DNA of 12,182 nucleotides from Candidatus Kaiserbacteria bacterium RIFCSPHIGHO2_02_FULL_54_11b (lineage in GTDB: Bacteria; Patescibacteriota; Minisyncoccia; Phycocordibacterales; UBA2100), in NCBI GenBank assembly GCA_001781275.1, contig MFLH01000029.1:5941-18122 (forward strand), given 5' to 3'. Shown one piece after another: positions 1 through 5,123 of the stretch. Under the pieces are notes generated by a model, which saw only the letters and a program-made list of their open reading frames with translations, had not been told where the DNA came from and ran no database searches. The translations under genes were made by a program, and so were the position numbers. The first letter of the stretch is position 1, and every line of letters starts with the position of its first letter.

Positions 1-2489
1 TCGATCACCTTGAGGTGATTCTCTTGCGCGATAAATTGTATGTTGAAAGGTCCTGTGATACGGAGTTCTTTCGCCGTTGCCGCCGCGATCGCTTTTGCGG
101 AATCCCGCGTTTCTTGGTTGGTGCGTTTTGTTGTCGGCAACACGACGGTAGCATCTCCCGAATGCGTGCCCGCGTTTTCGACGTGCTCTGTCATCGCCCA
201 CGCAAGTATTGTGCCGTTTTTGGCAACAGCATCTATTTCCAGTTCGCGCGCGTTCTCAATGAATTTCGAAATAACGACGGGGTGGTCCGAGGACACGTCG
301 GCCGCGCGTTTGAGGAATTTGACGAGCGCGTCTTTATCGATCGCAACACTCATTGCGGCCCCCGAGAGCACGTATGAGGGGCGCACTAAGACAGGGTAGC
401 CGATTTTTTCTGCTGCCTGCAGCGCCGCGTCTGTCGTCGTGAGTTCCGCCCAAGGCGGCTGGTCTATTCCAAGGCGATCCAACAATTTTGAGAACGTATG
501 TCGATTTTCCGCGCGATCGATGTCCTCGGGATGCGTTCCCAGTACCTTGATGCCGTTGTCGTGAAGGGAAAGCGCGAGGTTGTTGGGAATCTGCCCGCCT
601 GTCGAGATCACGACGCCTTGGGGCATTTCAAAGTCCGTGATATCGAGGACGCGCTCGAGAGAGAGTTCCTCAAAGTAAAGCCGATCCGAAGTGTCGTAGT
701 CGGTCGAGACTGTTTCCGGATTGTAATTTATCATTATCGTCCCGTACCCTTCTTTTTTGAGCGTACGAAGCGCCTGCACGCTCGACCAATCGAATTCCAC
801 CGATGAACCAATCGCATACGGACCGCTCCCCAAGACTGCAATTTGTTTCTTTCCGCGAACCACGTCGTGCTCGGTGCCGTGGTAGGTCATGTAGAGGTAG
901 TTGGTCTCGGCAGGGAATTCTCCTGCGAGCGTATCTATCTGTTTGACCACGGGCAGAACCTTGAGCTTTTTTCGCAGCGTGCGGATATCCGATTCCTTCG
1001 TATTTTTAATGACGGCAAGTTGTGCGTCGGAAAATCCTGCCTTTTTTGCGCGGCGCATGAGAGGGGTATCCAGTTTGCTGTGCTTCAATTCGCTCTCCAG
1101 CGCAATGATGTTCTGCATTTTGTGCAGGAACCACGGATCTATCGAACTCATCTCGTGCAATTTTTCTACCGAAACGCCCGCTTTTAGAGCTTCTGCGATC
1201 GCAAAGACGCGCCGCGATGTCGGGTTCTTTATTTCGTCGACATAGTCAGCAATCTGGAAATTGCCGTTCTTTTGCGCCGTCAGGCCGCCCGCACCGATGT
1301 TGAGCATGCGAATAGCTTTTTGGAACACTTCCTCGAATGAGCGGCCGATCGCCATGACCTCCCCGACACTTTTCATTTCGGTGCCGATGCGCGGAGCTGC
1401 GTTCTCGAATTTGTTGAGGTCCCAGCGTGGGATCTTCAAGACGATGTAGTCGAGTGCCGGCTCGAAGCAGGCGATCGTTTTCTTCGTGACAGAGTTGCGT
1501 ATCTCGGGGAGGGTGTAGCCTAGCCCAAGTTTGGCGGCGACGAACGCGAGCGGGTAACCCGTGGCTTTCGATGCGAGCGCGGAAGAGCGCGAAAGGCGAG
1601 CGTTGACCTCGATGACACGGTAGTCACCCGTCTTGGGGTGCAGGGCGTATTGGATATTGCATTCGCCCACAATGCCGAGGTGCCGAATCGTCTTGATGGC
1701 AATTTCCCGAAGTCCGTGGTACTCGGCGTTGGTAAGTGTCTGCGAAGGAGCGACCACAATACTCTCGCCGGTATGAATGCCCATCGGGTCGAAATTCTCC
1801 ATGTTGCAAACCGTGATGCAATTGTCGGCGCGGTCGCGGACGACTTCGTATTCGATCTCTTTCCATCCACCGAGGTATTCTTCGATAAGCACCTGCGACA
1901 CATTGCGAAAGACTTCCGGAAGTTTCGCTGAAAGCTCTTTCGCGTTTTTGACTACACCCGAGCCTTCGCCGCCGAGCGCAAAGCCCGAGCGCATCATGAC
2001 GGGATAACCGATCTCTTCGGCAGCCCGCAGCGCCTCTGCGACATTTGATGTGGCGCGACTGCGCGCAGTTTTTACGTCTATCTCTTTGAGTCGTTCTACG
2101 AAAAGTTCGCGGTCCTCGGTGTCGCGGATGGTCGAGACAGGAGTTCCCAAGACAGCCACCTTATATTTCTTCAACACGCCGTTTTTTTCGAGCGTGAGAC
2201 CGAGGTTGAGCGCCGTTTGGCCGCCAAACGAGAGGAGTATTGCGTCAGGCTTTTCTTTCTGTATCACCTGCGTTGCGAATTCTTCGGTCAGTGGCAGGAA
2301 GTACACAGTATCGGCAAGCTTCTCATCTGTCTGCACAGTCGCGATGTTGGGGTTGATAAGCACCACTTCAATACCTTCTTCTTTGAGCGCCTTGATGGCC
2401 TGAGAACCTGAGTAATCAAACTCGCCGGCCTGCCCGATGCGAAGGCCTCCCGAGCCGAGCAGCAATACTTTTTTCGGTTTCTTTATCAT
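1..2489 (-). CDS. carB: Carbamoyl-phosphate synthase large subunit, N-terminal ~829 codons (cut by left edge)
   Basis: CarB makes carbamoyl phosphate from ammonia (delivered by CarA), bicarbonate and two ATP, the first step of pyrimidine and arginine synthesis. The minus-strand frame opens with MIKKPKKVLLLGSGGLRIGQ followed by AGEFDYSGSQ, the classic start of the first carboxyphosphate ATP-grasp half. Further on it has GGQTALNLGL, GGEGSGVV, GECNIQYAL and EVNARLSRSSALASKATGYP. The second half begins near + position 830 with VLGSGPYAIGSSVEFDWSS. Reading reaches RITGPFNIQF at the window edge, inside the second ATP-grasp domain, so roughly 240 residues (the rest of that domain and the allosteric MGS-like domain) lie outside the window. 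No internal stop or frameshift was seen. The ATG overlaps the carA TGA as ATGA, which implies translational coupling. No convincing Shine-Dalgarno precedes it. Confidence 0.97.
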   Translation of the reverse strand, partial: MIKKPKKVLLLGSGGLRIGQAGEFDYSGSQAIKALKEEGIEVVLINPNIATVQTDEKLADTVYFLPLTEEFATQVIQKEKPDAILLSFGGQTALNLGLTLEKNGVLKKYKVAVLGTPVSTIRDTEDRELFVERLKEIDVKTARSRATSNVAEALRAAEEIGYPVMMRSGFALGGEGSGVVKNAKELSAKLPEVFRNVSQVLIEEYLGGWKEIEYEVVRDRADNCITVCNMENFDPMGIHTGESIVVAPSQTLTNAEYHGLREIAIKTIRHLGIVGECNIQYALHPKTGDYRVIEVNARLSRSSALASKATGYPLAFVAAKLGLGYTLPEIRNSVTKKTIACFEPALDYIVLKIPRWDLNKFENAAPRIGTEMKSVGEVMAIGRSFEEVFQKAIRMLNIGAGGLTAQKNGNFQIADYVDEIKNPTSRRVFAIAEALKAGVSVEKLHEMSSIDPWFLHKMQNIIALESELKHSKLDTPLMRRAKKAGFSDAQLAVIKNTKESDIRTLRKKLKVLPVVKQIDTLAGEFPAETNYLYMTYHGTEHDVVRGKKQIAVLGSGPYAIGSSVEFDWSSVQALRTLKKEGYGTIMINYNPETVSTDYDTSDRLYFEELSLERVLDITDFEMPQGVVISTGGQIPNNLALSLHDNGIKVLGTHPEDIDRAENRHTFSKLLDRLGIDQPPWAELTTTDAALQAAEKIGYPVLVRPSYVLSGAAMSVAIDKDALVKFLKRAADVSSDHPVVISKFIENARELEIDAVAKNGTILAWAMTEHVENAGTHSGDATVVLPTTKRTNQETRDSAKAIAAATAKELRITGPFNIQFIAQENHLKVI

Positions 2490-3562
2490 ACGGCCTTGAG
2501 AGTCTTCAAAAAATCATCGAATATCCACGCAGTATCCGTCGGCCCGGGAGTTGCCTCAGGGTGGAATTGCACCGAGCGCCACGGCTTGTTCTTGTGCCGA
2601 ATACCTTCGTTGCTGCCGTCGTTGGCGTTGGTAAACCATTCCTCCCATCCGGCGGGGAGGGTCTTTTCATCGACGGCGTACCCATGATTCTGGGAGGTGA
2701 TGTAACACCTCTTAGTTTTCTCCTCTACGCAAGGCTGATTCTGCGAACGATGGCCGTAGGGAAGTTTGTAGGTCTTTGCTCCGGCTGCGAGCGCTAAGAG
2801 CTGATTGCCAAGGCAGATGCCGAGTATCGGTTTGTTCTTTTTCATCGCGTCACGAATGTGCTCGATCGTTTTCACGCATTGCGTCGGGTCCCCTGGACCA
2901 TTGGAGATAAAGAGTGCGTCGTAGTCGTCGCGCGTGAAATCGTAGTCCCACGGTACGCGAATGACCGTCGTTTCTTTTCGCGCGAGCGAGCGCACGATGT
3001 TTTCTTTCATACCACAATCGATCGCAACTATTTTTATGGGGCCATTGCTTGCCCTTCGTAGCTTTAGCGAAGTAGGGCCATACATTTTTTTCTTTTTCGG
3101 ACTCACCGCCGCGACGAGATTCTCTTCATTGGGATCGAAGAATTTCTTCTGTTTTTCTGCGCCGAGTGCGCCTAACATCACGCCATGTTCGCGAAGCTTT
3201 TTCGTCAAGGCTCGTGTGTCGACGCCCGAGATCGCCGGCACACCGGAGTCTTTAAGCCATTTCGCGAGAGACATTTTTGCGCCCGCGTGTGAGTATTGTT
3301 CGCAATACTCTGAGACGACGAGACCAGCGATCTGGATTTTTTCTGATTCGAGCGTCTTCGGGTCGGGCACACCGTAGTTGCCGATTAGGGGATAGGTGAG
3401 CACAACGATTTGGCCGGCATACGAAGGATCAGTAAGCCCCTCGGGGTAACCGACCATGCCGGTGTTGAAAACGACCTCGCCGTGCACTTGCTTGCCAGCA
3501 GGTATGCTAGCGCCGAAATTTTCTCCCTCAATCACCGTGCCGTCTTGGAGGTAGAGCTTCAT
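2486..3562 (-). CDS. carA: Carbamoyl-phosphate synthase small (glutamine amidotransferase) subunit
   Basis: CarA hydrolyses glutamine and passes ammonia to CarB. It has 358 residues, slightly under the usual ~370-380. The N-terminal CarA domain (about 1-150) shows EVVFNTGMVGYPEGLTDPSY and SGVDTRALTKKLR. The class I amidotransferase domain (about 177-358) has FISNGPGDP, nucleophile C250 in GICLGNQLLA, the HGYAVD segment, and H334/E336 in QFHPEA. The ATG at 3562 fits the family N-terminus (MKLYLQDGTVIEGENF). A TTG at 3661 in the same frame would add 33 unconserved residues, but it overlaps the -10 box and so probably lies upstream of the mRNA. No Shine-Dalgarno precedes the ATG; it overlaps the stop of a 30-codon upstream ORF. 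Residues 162-171, in the linker between the domains, are encoded by a short palindrome that looks inserted. The usual HRGANHP segment reads HRSQNQP here. Confidence 0.96.
   Translation of the reverse strand: MKLYLQDGTVIEGENFGASIPAGKQVHGEVVFNTGMVGYPEGLTDPSYAGQIVVLTYPLIGNYGVPDPKTLESEKIQIAGLVVSEYCEQYSHAGAKMSLAKWLKDSGVPAISGVDTRALTKKLREHGVMLGALGAEKQKKFFDPNEENLVAAVSPKKKKMYGPTSLKLRRASNGPIKIVAIDCGMKENIVRSLARKETTVIRVPWDYDFTRDDYDALFISNGPGDPTQCVKTIEHIRDAMKKNKPILGICLGNQLLALAAGAKTYKLPYGHRSQNQPCVEEKTKRCYITSQNHGYAVDEKTLPAGWEEWFTNANDGSNEGIRHKNKPWRSVQFHPEATPGPTDTAWIFDDFLKTLKAV
3051..3078. repeat. Palindromic element inside carA
   Basis: On the plus strand, GCCC-CTTCG-type arms surround the core CTTCGTAGCTTTAGCGAAG: CTTCG pairs with CGAAG over a 9-nt loop, and outer GCCC/GGGC pair with a TA bulge. 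It encodes carA residues about 162-171 (GPTSLKLRRA), in the linker between the N-terminal and amidotransferase domains, a stretch with no counterpart I recall in other CarA proteins. From memory, CTTCGTAGCTTTAGCGAAG-like words recur in Parcubacteria genomes. No second copy is visible in this window. Confidence 0.6.
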
Positions 3563-3651
3563 ATAAGAAAAATCCGCCAGAGGCGGGAATAGAGGAGGTA
3601 AAAAAATGCACCCGAGCGGGTGTTCTTCTTCGGAAACTCCTTGGAGGTCAT
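3559..3651 (-). CDS. Candidate 30-residue leader peptide upstream of carA
   Basis: An ATG at 3651 opens a 30-codon frame (MTSKEFPKKNTRSG, then AFFYLLYSRLWRIFLI). Its TGA overlaps the carA ATG as ATGA. The ATG lies 9 nt after the -10 box TACACT, so the mRNA would begin almost at the start codon. Two GC-rich hairpins, each followed by a T run, sit inside this ORF. This resembles the architecture of pyrBI attenuation in E. coli, where a leader peptide is translated across a U-rich pause region and a terminator. The peptide matches no family I recognise and its role would be regulatory. That it is translated is inferred from position only; chance is possible for a 30-codon frame. Confidence 0.5.
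   Translation of the reverse strand: MTSKEFPKKNTRSGAFFYLLYSRLWRIFLI
3568..3586 (-). terminator. Second leader hairpin plus T5 run just before carA (candidate attenuator)
   Basis: On the minus strand, CCGCC (3586-3582) pairs perfectly with GGCGG (3578-3574) across a TCT loop, followed by A and TTTTT (3572-3568). The T run ends five bases before the carA ATG. A ribosome translating the 30-codon leader ORF would cover this hairpin. It may act as a terminator, or as a structure that makes carA initiation depend on leader translation. The 5-bp stem limits confidence. Confidence 0.5.
3600..3622 (-). terminator. First leader hairpin plus T7 run upstream of carA (candidate pause/attenuator element)
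   Basis: On the minus strand, CACCC (3622-3618) pairs with GGGTG (3613-3609) across a GCTC loop and is followed by CA and seven Ts (3606-3600). The stem is short (5 bp) but GC-rich, as in a weak intrinsic terminator or pause site. It lies within the candidate leader ORF. The U run upstream of the second hairpin is where a UTP-starved polymerase would slow. Confidence 0.5.
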
Positions 3652-3660
3652 TAAAAGCCA

Positions 3661-3688
3661 AGTGTAGCCGATTTTAGGTTTTTGTCAA
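3661..3688 (-). promoter_or_regulatory. carAB promoter (TTGACA-N16-TACACT)
   Basis: On the minus strand, a consensus TTGACA (3688-3683), a 16-nt spacer and TACACT (3666-3661) stand upstream of carA. The predicted start is near 3654, leaving about 90 nt of leader before carA and only 2-3 nt before the upstream ATG. It sits back to back with the uvrC -10 box. Confidence 0.75.
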
Positions 3689-3707: not shown

Positions 3708-4931
3708 ATGGAGAAACCAGAACTCAAGAAATACAAAGTCCCGGACGAACCCGGCGTCTATCTTTTCAAAAAAGGGCGGAAAATCCTCTACATTGGCAAG
3801 GCGACGAGCCTGCGCGATCGAGTGCGGAGCTATTTTTCATCCGACTTGGTAGCCGGAAGAGGAGACCGGATCGTCGGCATGGTGGCGGGAGCTACGTCTT
3901 TAGACTGGAAGGTGACCCAATCCGTACTCGAAGCACTCATGCTCGAGTCGCACCTCATCAAACATCATCAGCCTCCATACAACGTGGATGAGAAAGACAA
4001 CAAAAGTTGGAATTACGTCGTTATCACCAAAGAAGATTTTCCGCGCGTACTCCTTGTTCGCGGCCGTGAACTATTTCAGGATGTTGGGTTTACGAAACCC
4101 AACATCAGGGTAGGAACATTTTTTGGGCCGTATCCGCACGGAGGGCAACTGAAGGAGGCATTGAAGATCATTCGCAAAATCTTCCCGTTTCGCGACAGCT
4201 GTGTTTCTCAAAGTGGAAAGCCTTGCTTCAATCGGCAAATAGGATTGTGCCCAGGGGTTTGCTCGGGCGAAGTGAGCGTCGAGGAATACGAAAAAACGAT
4301 ACGCAACCTCAAAGAACTTTTCTCGGGGAATTTCAAAGGTCTCAAGCAACGACTTGTGCGCGAAATGAAGGTCGCGGCTGCAGCAGAGAGGTTCGAGGAT
4401 GCATCTCGGCTCCGCAGACAAGTACATGCGCTCGAACATATCCACGATGTCTCCCTCATTAAGGACGAGCATCGTATCGCGTCGGGAGGCGGTGTGCGTA
4501 TTGAAGCGTTTGACGTTGCGCACACCGGCGGAACGGAAACTGTCGGCGTCATGACTGTCGTCAGCAGCGGAGAGTCGATGAAAGCCGCTTACAGAAAATT
4601 TAAAATTCGCACAGCGACCAACGACGACGTCGCGGCTCTGAAAGAACTTCTATCGCGACGTCTGAATCATTCTGAATGGCCACTGCCACGAGTATTCGTC
4701 GTGGATGGGGGAAAGGGGCAGGTGCGCGGGGCGCAGGCTGTGTTGAAGGGGGCGGGGATAGAAGTGCCGGTAGTGGGTGTGGTGAAAGATGAGCGACACA
4801 AGCCCGAGCGACTCATCGGAGATGCGCGAGCCATCCAAGCATACGAGAAGGACATTCTGCTTGCCAATTCCGAGGCGCATCGGTTCGCTATTTCGTGGCA
4901 TAAGAAGAGGCTCAGTGCACGCATGTATTGA
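3708..4931 (+). CDS. uvrC: UvrC-type excinuclease subunit lacking the C-terminal HhH region
   Basis: UvrC makes the dual incisions of nucleotide excision repair. Here it has 407 residues against about 590-620 usually. The GIY-YIG nuclease is at 16-100 (GVY, YIG, Arg39, Glu80). Four cysteines (165, 173, 181, 185) match the UvrC iron-sulphur-type cluster, and the UVR motif is at about 220-245. The RNase H-like second nuclease runs from about 262 to 400, with D269 in FDVAHTGGTETVG, D333 in VVDGGKGQ and H391 in AHRFAISWHKK, so both nuclease centres look intact. The protein stops right after that block, where other UvrC proteins continue into the tandem HhH DNA-binding domain. No HhH-like continuation is visible in the next bases, which form a promoter instead. 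Residues 125-133 are coded by a perfect 12-bp palindrome. The start is set by the leaderless -10 box; MEKPELKKYKVPDEPGVYLF fits the family. Confidence 0.93.
   Translation: MEKPELKKYKVPDEPGVYLFKKGRKILYIGKATSLRDRVRSYFSSDLVAGRGDRIVGMVAGATSLDWKVTQSVLEALMLESHLIKHHQPPYNVDEKDNKSWNYVVITKEDFPRVLLVRGRELFQDVGFTKPNIRVGTFFGPYPHGGQLKEALKIIRKIFPFRDSCVSQSGKPCFNRQIGLCPGVCSGEVSVEEYEKTIRNLKELFSGNFKGLKQRLVREMKVAAAAERFEDASRLRRQVHALEHIHDVSLIKDEHRIASGGGVRIEAFDVAHTGGTETVGVMTVVSSGESMKAAYRKFKIRTATNDDVAALKELLSRRLNHSEWPLPRVFVVDGGKGQVRGAQAVLKGAGIEVPVVGVVKDERHKPERLIGDARAIQAYEKDILLANSEAHRFAISWHKKRLSARMY
4080..4106. repeat. Perfect 12-bp inverted repeat inside uvrC
   Basis: GATGTTGGGTTT (4080-4091), spacer ACG, then AAACCCAACATC (4095-4106): 12 matching pairs with a 3-nt loop. 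It is exactly codon-aligned and encodes residues 125-133 (DVGFTKPNI). In other UvrC proteins the text passes almost directly from the RGREL-like strand to the FGPYPHG motif, so this looks like an added surface loop. From memory, GTTGGGTTT...AAACCCAAC palindromes are common dispersed words in CPR genomes. Confidence 0.75.
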
Positions 4932-4956
4932 CACCCACCCACTTTGTTAGTATAAT
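4928..4956 (+). promoter_or_regulatory. Perfect-consensus promoter TTGACA-N17-TATAAT for the 28-residue peptide gene
   Basis: TTGACA at 4928-4933, a spacer of exactly 17 nt and TATAAT at 4951-4956 match the housekeeping sigma consensus at all twelve positions, the best promoter in the window. The -35 box contains the uvrC stop codon (TGA at 4929-4931). The predicted start is near 4963. Confidence 0.92.
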
Positions 4957-4981
4957 ACAACGACGGCATTAGGAGGAAACC

Positions 4982-5068
4982 ATGCTCGAGTTTCAGATCA
5001 TCGGAGCAGTGTTCATTGCACTGTTCCTCGCGGCACTCGTGACCGGCGAAAGCACGCCGACGAGATGA
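4982..5068 (+). CDS. 28-residue single-span membrane peptide, strongly expressed by its signals
   Basis: The frame encodes 28 residues: a short amphipathic start (MLEFQ), a hydrophobic span of about 17 residues (IIGAVFIALFLAALVTG) and a polar tail (ESTPTR). A perfect AGGAGG lies at 4971-4976, 5 nt before the ATG. The gene has its own perfect-consensus promoter and a hairpin/T-run terminator, so the transcript would be only about 150-160 nt. I recognise no family. It could be an inner-membrane small protein modulating a larger complex, or a hydrophobic toxin, though no antitoxin RNA was identified. The coding call rests on the Shine-Dalgarno, the start and the membrane profile; an sRNA with incidental coding is the alternative. 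Confidence 0.7.
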   Translation: MLEFQIIGAVFIALFLAALVTGESTPTR

Positions 5069-5083
5069 CGCACTCACAATCCA

Positions 5084-5123
5084 CCGCTCGGCGCACATCT
5101 ACGTGCCGGGCGGATTTCTTTTT
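5084..5123 (+). terminator. Intrinsic terminator after the 28-residue peptide gene
   Basis: CCGCTCGGCGCAC (5084-5096) pairs with GTGCCGGGCGG (5103-5113), with one G-T pair and one bulged G, across a 6-nt loop. The T-rich run ATTTCTTTTT follows. It ends the short unit before the next promoter, whose -35 begins at 5132. Confidence 0.8.

Follow-up and report, generated by a model that had tools for sequence, protein, structure and literature searches.

A 12,182-nt stretch of the genome of Candidatus Kaiserbacteria bacterium RIFCSPHIGHO2_02_FULL_54_11b (the window; the host genome comprises 741,590 bases in 56 contigs) carries on its minus strand two genes that we take, by resemblance, to be carA and carB. 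Directly upstream of carAB lies the subject of this study, the carA leader, in which a short upstream open reading frame (uORF) runs from a promoter across two hairpins, each followed by a U-tract, and ends on the carA start codon (Table 1). The position ahead of carAB gives the leader a pyrimidine operon context, and carAB also serves arginine. A preliminary description had proposed a PyrL-like attenuator here, and all the elements it claimed in the carA upstream region were located at their minus-strand positions.

Table 1. Features of the carA leader and the genes downstream, in window coordinates (nt, nucleotides)
Feature	Position	Strand	Remarks
-35 hexamer TTGACA	3683..3688	-	TTGAC 16-18 nt from -10 in 27/31 leaders
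-10 hexamer TACACT	3661..3666	-	16 nt after -35; TAnnnT exactly 9 nt before uORF ATG in 32/32 leaders
9-nt start region TGGCTTTTA	3652..3660	-	presumed transcription start within a few nt of ATG
Leader ORF (uORF), 30 codons, MTSKEFPKKNTRSGAFFYLLYSRLWRIFLI	3559..3651 (ATG 3651-3649)	-	presumed leaderless
Hairpin 1, CACCC-GCTC-GGGTG	3609..3622	-	pause hairpin or weak first terminator; 30/32 leaders, stem start nt 25-31 of uORF
U-tract T7, after hairpin 1 + CA	3600..3606	-	uORF codons 16-18; candidate UTP-sensitive pause
Hairpin 2, CCGCC-TCT-GGCGG	3574..3586	-	predicted intrinsic terminator stem-loop; 30/32 leaders
Terminator U-tract T5, after hairpin 2 + A	3568..3572	-	read in window sequence
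ATGA junction	3559..3562	-	uORF stop TGA 3561-3559 over carA ATG 3562-3560
carA, carbamoyl-phosphate synthase small subunit	2486..3562	-	named by resemblance
carB, large subunit	3..2489	-	named by resemblance; runs off window; ATGA overlap with carA

The leader ORF and its start region

carA was found in 31 of 52 genomes of the genus at an E-value of 1e-60 and also, at a looser cut-off, in G010. The leader could be read in 31 of these 32 genomes, which gives 32 leaders in total with two from G000; the rows left out are L023 (from G012, where the contig begins inside carA) and L025 and L026, the second pieces of L022 and L021. One leader, L013, lies at a contig end, so its -35 region is absent and the -35 counts use 31 leaders. 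Most of the genomes are fragmented assemblies, and the leaders are related though divergent (positional identity over nt 0-53: median 0.56, range 0.24-0.91) and are not independent samples. The second carA of G000 (contig C56; L002, L151) stands beside a uvrC-like gene on a 6.8-kb contig and is 75% identical to the first; the contig is likely a contaminant from another species of the genus.

In all 32 leaders the uORF ends on the carA start, with its stop at +4 in 29 and at +10 in three. The distance from ATG to ATG ranges from 50 to 224 nt and takes 20 different values, every one of them 2 mod 3, and the uORF frame is open in 32/32 leaders compared with 5/32 and 9/32 for the two other frames. 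From the first codons through hairpin 1 to the U-tract the leaders align almost gap-free, and the divergence in length comes after the U-tract. That the uORF stays open and still ends on carA despite this divergence is strong evidence that it is translated and that its end is required to meet the carA start. The uORFs were chosen by a stop near carA; an unselected list of TAATG ORFs yields the same ORF in 31/32 leaders, the other (L116) reading TGATG. Among 77 other carA loci, including L086, L088 and L090 with less than 100 nt of upstream sequence, an ATG-started uORF ends at the carA start in four, and one with any start codon in 14. (Eighty such loci had been fetched; L031 and L032 were removed as members of the same genus and L110 because its match begins at residue 27.) Fusion of the uORF to carA by a frameshift or slippage at the T7 tract was considered and rejected, as no more than 12/32 leaders have a carA frame that stays open as far upstream as the U-tract.

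The encoded peptide itself appears to be under little constraint. Over uORF codons 2-10 the entropy is 1.45, 1.50 and 1.60 bits at codon positions 1-3, and hairpin 1 and the U-tract account for all the residues that are conserved, so it seems to be the act of translation, rather than the peptide, that matters. Conserved codons for a sensed amino acid, the hallmark of trp/his-type attenuators, do not appear in the codon table.

With a -10 box at a fixed distance from its ATG in every leader, the uORF is presumed to start leaderless, and in doing so it uses what looks like the normal start mode of the genus. The -10 boxes in the genus cluster 6-9 nt before ATGs, and Shine-Dalgarno (SD)-like motifs precede 25 of 283 ORFs in the genus loci; many of these ORFs are orthologous and neither count is of independent cases. 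The preliminary description had pointed out that carA has no SD. This holds in the window, while five of the 32 leaders have an SD-like motif at that place, and the point is a weak one given the rarity of SD motifs genus-wide. A special spacing of 8-10 nt for pyr promoters was also considered, but 25 of the 66 starts in a sample from G027 share it and we now treat it as speculation only.

The start region raises the possibility that uridine triphosphate (UTP) exerts its effect on initiation. Slippage or a choice of start site would be made possible by the T-run ahead of the ATG (TTTTAATG), only A starts would give a leaderless message, and the hairpins would be secondary. TTTA stands immediately 5' of the uORF ATG in 27/32 carA leaders, compared with 0/66 starts in the G027 sample and 4/80 other genus loci; all four of the latter are pyrB or pyrF by resemblance, and two of them (L156 and L160) entered the set as matches of model R1 (see below). 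There is also a precedent in promoter P1 of Escherichia coli carAB, where slippage at a U run is described as the basis of UTP control (PMC6245113). However, the 9-nt spacing also occurs outside the pyr genes (11/66 starts in the G027 sample), pyrF has a spacing of 8 nt in 16/27 rows, and the conserved hairpins and frame are left unexplained. We therefore regard control at initiation alone as quite unlikely.

Divergent from carA is a uvrC-like gene, named by resemblance, whose ATG is preceded at a distance of 6 nt by a separate -10 box, TATACT. A small plus-strand ORF at 3606-3677, with an SD (GGAGG) 7 nt from its ATG, is ascribed to chance; its ATG is present in only 4/32 leaders.

Hairpins and U-tracts

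Taken alone, the window is unremarkable: it holds 20 terminator-like sites (13.9 +/- 3.6 in shuffled sequences), and the leader fold has a z-score of -2.04. The comparison of leaders is more informative. All 32 contain at least one hairpin-U unit and 20 contain two within 100 nt of the uORF ATG; the corresponding means per 32 leaders are 1.07 and 0.02 after codon shuffling, and 1.14 and 0 after dinucleotide shuffling. In the alignment of hairpin 1 (30 leaders) 87.2% of cells are paired and the covariation score is 0.154, whereas slid versions reach at most 58.9% and 0.110; the observed score was reached by one of 500 shuffles. The number of pairs with double-sided changes (four of six) was matched by the versions slid by -1, +2 and +3, hence our use of paired cells and score. 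The arms of hairpin 2 pair far better with their own partner than across leaders (19.19 vs 12.59), and those of hairpin 1 also do so (15.44 vs 13.61). Conservation in relatives of the uORF frame, the carA overlap and both hairpin/U units, with compensatory stem changes, had been proposed as a check, and the genus leaders bear it out. The carA leader is thus almost certainly a conserved functional leader, as judged from these sequence comparisons.

Hairpin 1 is absent in L013 and L112, and no leader is devoid of both hairpins. Hairpin 2 starts at nt 54-67 in 26 leaders and further down in L007, L015, L018 and L113. The mean energy of hairpin 1 is -8.6 kcal/mol (32 leaders, with L013 at 0) and that of hairpin 2 is -11.6 kcal/mol over the 28 leaders scored; L005 and L009, where the stem extends into the T-run, fall outside this set and were found by the arm-pairing comparison. 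The T-run at nt 40-57 has at least five T in 25/32 leaders, four in six and three in one, and the distance from the U-tract to the terminator is 2-15 nt in 26 leaders and 46-124 nt in four. At the end of the U-tract there is a pause-like pattern, with U at nt 51 in 32/32 leaders, a purine at nt 52 in 29 and G at nt 42 in 29; this pattern (G-10/Y-1/R+1) is close to the reported pause consensus, G-10/Y-1/G+1 (PMC9291695).

The uORF/carA overlap would also suit a purely translational device, with the uORF as a leaderless entry that feeds carA via ATGA, possibly a stem that hides the carA start, and no attenuation. Indeed, the best fold of the window pairs uORF nucleotides with the carA start (score 16.0). 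This pairing is not clearly kept in the relatives (own 11.48, cross 11.06), however, and the two hairpin-U units are far above chance, which makes a device of this kind very unlikely. Pairing of the 5' region with hairpin 1 or with the spacer gave no own-over-cross signal either.

Proposed transcription attenuation of carAB and alternative readings

Several characteristics of pyrBI-type control are found at this locus: a leader ORF across a terminator (32/32 leaders, with the terminator in 30/32), a U-rich tract before the terminator, and a pyrimidine operon. Since the leader is composed of the same kinds of parts as E. coli pyrBI, we favour an explanation along the same lines, namely that the stretch 3688-3559 (minus strand) is probably a pyrBI-type translation-coupled transcription attenuator for carAB, rebuilt on leaderless initiation. 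That the leader acts as a translation-coupled attenuator of some kind appears very likely from the comparative evidence; for UTP-dependent pausing as its signal, which we draw from the analogy with pyrBI, the balance tips modestly in favour. Conservation supports part of the PyrL-like proposal of the preliminary description, namely the leaderless-type placement of the ORF, the hairpin/U units, the carA overlap and the position of the U-tract shortly before the terminator in 26 leaders. Its first hairpin fares less well: hairpin 1 looks accessory rather than core, because it is missing in L013 and L112 and unclear by eye in two other families.

According to this model RNA polymerase would initiate at most a few nt away from the uORF ATG and slow in the U-tract about 50 nt into the transcript, aided in this genus by hairpin 1. 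During the pause a ribosome could load on the leaderless AUG, and the near-fixed spacer of about 28 nt that separates the ATG and hairpin 1 may correspond to roughly one initiating ribosome's footprint, exposed while the polymerase waits. When UTP is plentiful, the polymerase would leave the U-tract ahead of the ribosome, hairpin 2 would fold and transcription would stop. When UTP is scarce, a ribosome close behind would cover hairpin 2 and the polymerase would enter carAB. The leader ribosome would end on ATGA and pass to carA, which would be translated mainly by leader ribosomes. A more elaborate version is a two-stage gauge, in which TTTTAATG makes the choice of the first nucleotide UTP-dependent and so sets true leaderlessness, and the U-tract then sets whether the ribosome catches up before the terminator. 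The UTP level would be tied to leaderless loading, and all carA translation would descend from the leader ribosome. We consider this version doubtful.

Several observations weigh against UTP-dependent attenuation. Hairpin 2 is absent in L117, L014 has a weak AT-rich stem only, and in four leaders hairpin 2 lies 98-176 nt from the ATG, distant from the U-tract. The stems in the window are weak, as the preliminary description had feared from their 5 bp: their energies are -7.9 and -7.0 kcal/mol, compared with -15.3 kcal/mol for the E. coli pyrL terminator, and hairpin 2 of the window is the third weakest of the 28 scored. Among the loci fetched, the element was not seen at those of pyrB, pyrF and pyrC, and it is therefore not regulon-wide. 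The hairpin 1 unit is shaped like a terminator, and a polymerase slowed there might terminate more often instead of coupling to a ribosome. Finally, the two hairpins might form an antiterminator between them: GGGUG, the 3' arm of hairpin 1, can pair with the C-rich 5' arm of hairpin 2. The mean energy of this duplex is -7.2 kcal/mol vs -6.25 for shuffled arms, and the duplex is stronger than hairpin 2 in 3/30 leaders and than hairpin 1 in 8/30.

The geometry of hairpin 1 bears on the strongest competitor, a pair of tandem terminators that report translation generally (ribosome supply, growth state) rather than UTP, with the U-tracts as mere terminator tails. If the hairpin 1 unit is a first terminator, weight would shift to this reading, which involves no UTP sensing. 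The unit has terminator spacing (stem end at nt 43, last U at nt 51), the mean energies of both hairpins agree with it, and the leaders with hairpin 1 only (L117) or hairpin 2 only (L013 and L112) suggest redundancy. On the other hand, a ribosome still at the start codon would stay short of hairpin 1 and could hardly relieve it unless the polymerase paused, the controlled gene starts pyrimidine synthesis, and U-rich stretches remain where hairpin 1 has been lost (L013, L112, L228 and L229, by eye). On this evidence we judge tandem terminators rather unlikely.

The possible antiterminator would be central to a stalling attenuator, for instance one that responds to arginine, to which carbamoyl phosphate is also directed. 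If a ribosome came to a halt over the 5' arm of hairpin 1, the 3' arm would become available for pairing with hairpin 2, and the terminator would be prevented. Codon 12 of the uORF is Arg in 16/32 leaders and the alternative duplex can form. Yet codon 12 is His in eight leaders and something else in eight, no single-codon run is found outside the hairpin and U-tract, and the duplex is weaker than hairpin 2 in 27/30. The alternative arms pair no better with their own partner than crossed (11.24 vs 11.21, n = 31), in a comparison of low power as the hairpin 1 arm hardly varies. Stalling is accordingly even less probable than the purely translational device.

Gene regulation in the reduced, uncultured Patescibacteria is little known, and searches of the open literature, in which subscription papers are mostly not covered, turned up no account of the carA leader. 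If our interpretation is correct, the carA leader would be a metabolite-level RNA switch in this group that operates without a dedicated protein on the first step of pyrimidine synthesis. It would also be a natural system in which transcription-translation coupling begins from a leaderless message, and coupling in small-genome bacteria could then be tested in vitro on a template of only some 200 bp of DNA.

Reach beyond the carA leaders and comparison with known systems

Model R1 was searched against the 52 genus genomes with stricter filters, which lose weak matches, and at most 79 candidates scored per genome. It gave 31 strong matches, all of them carA leaders (30 form the training set and the other is L117); L013, at its contig end, was missed. 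Eleven weak matches had E-values of 0.009-0.075, two at pyrF starts and the rest at no consistent gene, and nothing else fell below 0.009. The pyrF starts in L156 and L160 (G021:C22 and G071:C23) resemble the carA leader in having a -10 box, 9 nt ending in TTTA, the ATG and a U-run near codon 17; no terminator was noticed. Thirty loci were read of the 58 matches to PF02729 (three are OTCase-like by eye), and 14 of them have a -10 box 6-10 nt before the pyrB start. G015, G016, G019, G030 and G074 have an ATCase-family gene and no carA match; G030 is 79% complete and the other four genomes 95-99%.

A scan of the genus loci, including pyrB, pyrD-family, pyrF and pyrC, for a uORF with terminator and overlap gave one match in 846 starts, in the pyrC-like locus L310 (G025), where a 41-codon ORF overlaps a GTG-started ORF of 178 residues. 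In a 398-kb sample of G027 the same scan gave four rows at three places (rpmH-rnpA, a TTG start and a transposase-like GTG start), none like carA. The first of these, L241 (G027:C1:86001-106000), has an rpmH-like ORF with a -10 box just upstream, a stop that shares one base with the rnpA-like ATG, and a hairpin/T unit.

The order comprises 397 genomes, 16 of which have carA at an E-value of 1e-60, 11 of them outside the genus. By eye, four of these 11, from three other families, show the leader wholly or partly. In G408 the leader is complete; since carA there is 81% identical, it may reflect transfer or mis-binning. The uORF, the terminator and the overlap are present in G159 and G373; hairpin 1 is unclear in both and the U-rich tract is weak in G373. 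G209 has the uORF, whose stop lies inside the terminator, and no carA overlap. The other seven genomes, with carA 52-59% identical, have no such leader by eye; L233 and L235 have other ORFs that overlap the carA start. From these few sequences the ORF, the U-rich tract and the terminator look like an older core to which hairpin 1 was added later. The carA-carB ATGA overlap noted in the preliminary description is present in the window (2489-2486) and partly conserved, with an ATGA end in 19/30 loci that hold the carA end.

Elsewhere in the window, 4928-5120 (plus strand) combines a perfect TTGACA-17-TATAAT promoter, an AGGAGG SD, a 28-residue hydrophobic peptide (4982-5068) and an 11-bp terminator (5084-5113). 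It resembles an independent gene for a small protein, with strong consensus signals where the genus otherwise shows few SD motifs. A match to the peptide was found in 1/52 genus genomes, its own.

Among known systems, the PyrR attenuators of Firmicutes also place terminators ahead of pyrimidine operons, which are PyrR targets there, and act through a protein-bound RNA element. In contrast, an Rfam search of the carA leader gave nothing except an ffh hit at the level of chance (18.4 bits against a cut-off of 35), and a search with a PyrR model found 0/52 genus genomes above the cut-off, with weaker matches in 17 that are perhaps other phosphoribosyltransferases. PyrR-type control, or another known leader RNA, is therefore exceedingly improbable. 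Leaderless leader peptides reportedly occur among the mycobacterial cysteine uORFs. In Streptomyces lividans, leuL, trpL and ilvL are likewise described as leader ORFs on leaderless transcripts, some with a hairpin and a U stretch (PMC8079986). Actinobacterial leader peptides carry codons for the sensed amino acid, whereas the carA leader conserves none and is followed by pyrimidine genes. In E. coli pyrE translation is supplied by the preceding gene, unlike the dedicated short ORF of the carA leader. The pyrE attenuator is otherwise like the one proposed here, with a pyrimidine gene subject to attenuation and pausing that depends on UTP (PMC7818426). E. coli carAB is described as having two tandem promoters, with P2 not subject to attenuation (PMC6245113), and differs in this from the carAB that the leader studied here would control.

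The closest parallel is E. coli pyrBI. Its leader, pyrL, is also a short ORF that crosses a U-rich tract and an intrinsic terminator and ends at the first structural gene of a pyrimidine pathway operon (PMC7818426, PMC5021804). At pyrBI the pause sites are reported to be transcribed fast at high UTP (PMC7818426), and tight coupling of ribosome and polymerase to prevent the terminator (PMC5021804); in an E. coli model system, moving the stop codon close to a terminator reduced termination from about 90% to less than 10% (PMC4824070). In its sequence pyrL has an 8-bp terminator, an SD (GGAGG) where the carA leader has a presumed leaderless start, and an ORF that ends 3 nt before pyrB rather than overlapping the gene by ATGA. 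The carA leader is shorter (about 65 nt to the terminator vs 88), and a hairpin precedes its U-tract, whereas the pyrL pause is classed as preceded by weak structure and as showing no NusA effect (PMC9291695). A GAFF motif common to pyrL and the carA leader corresponds to a G-rich arm followed by a U-run and is likely convergent.

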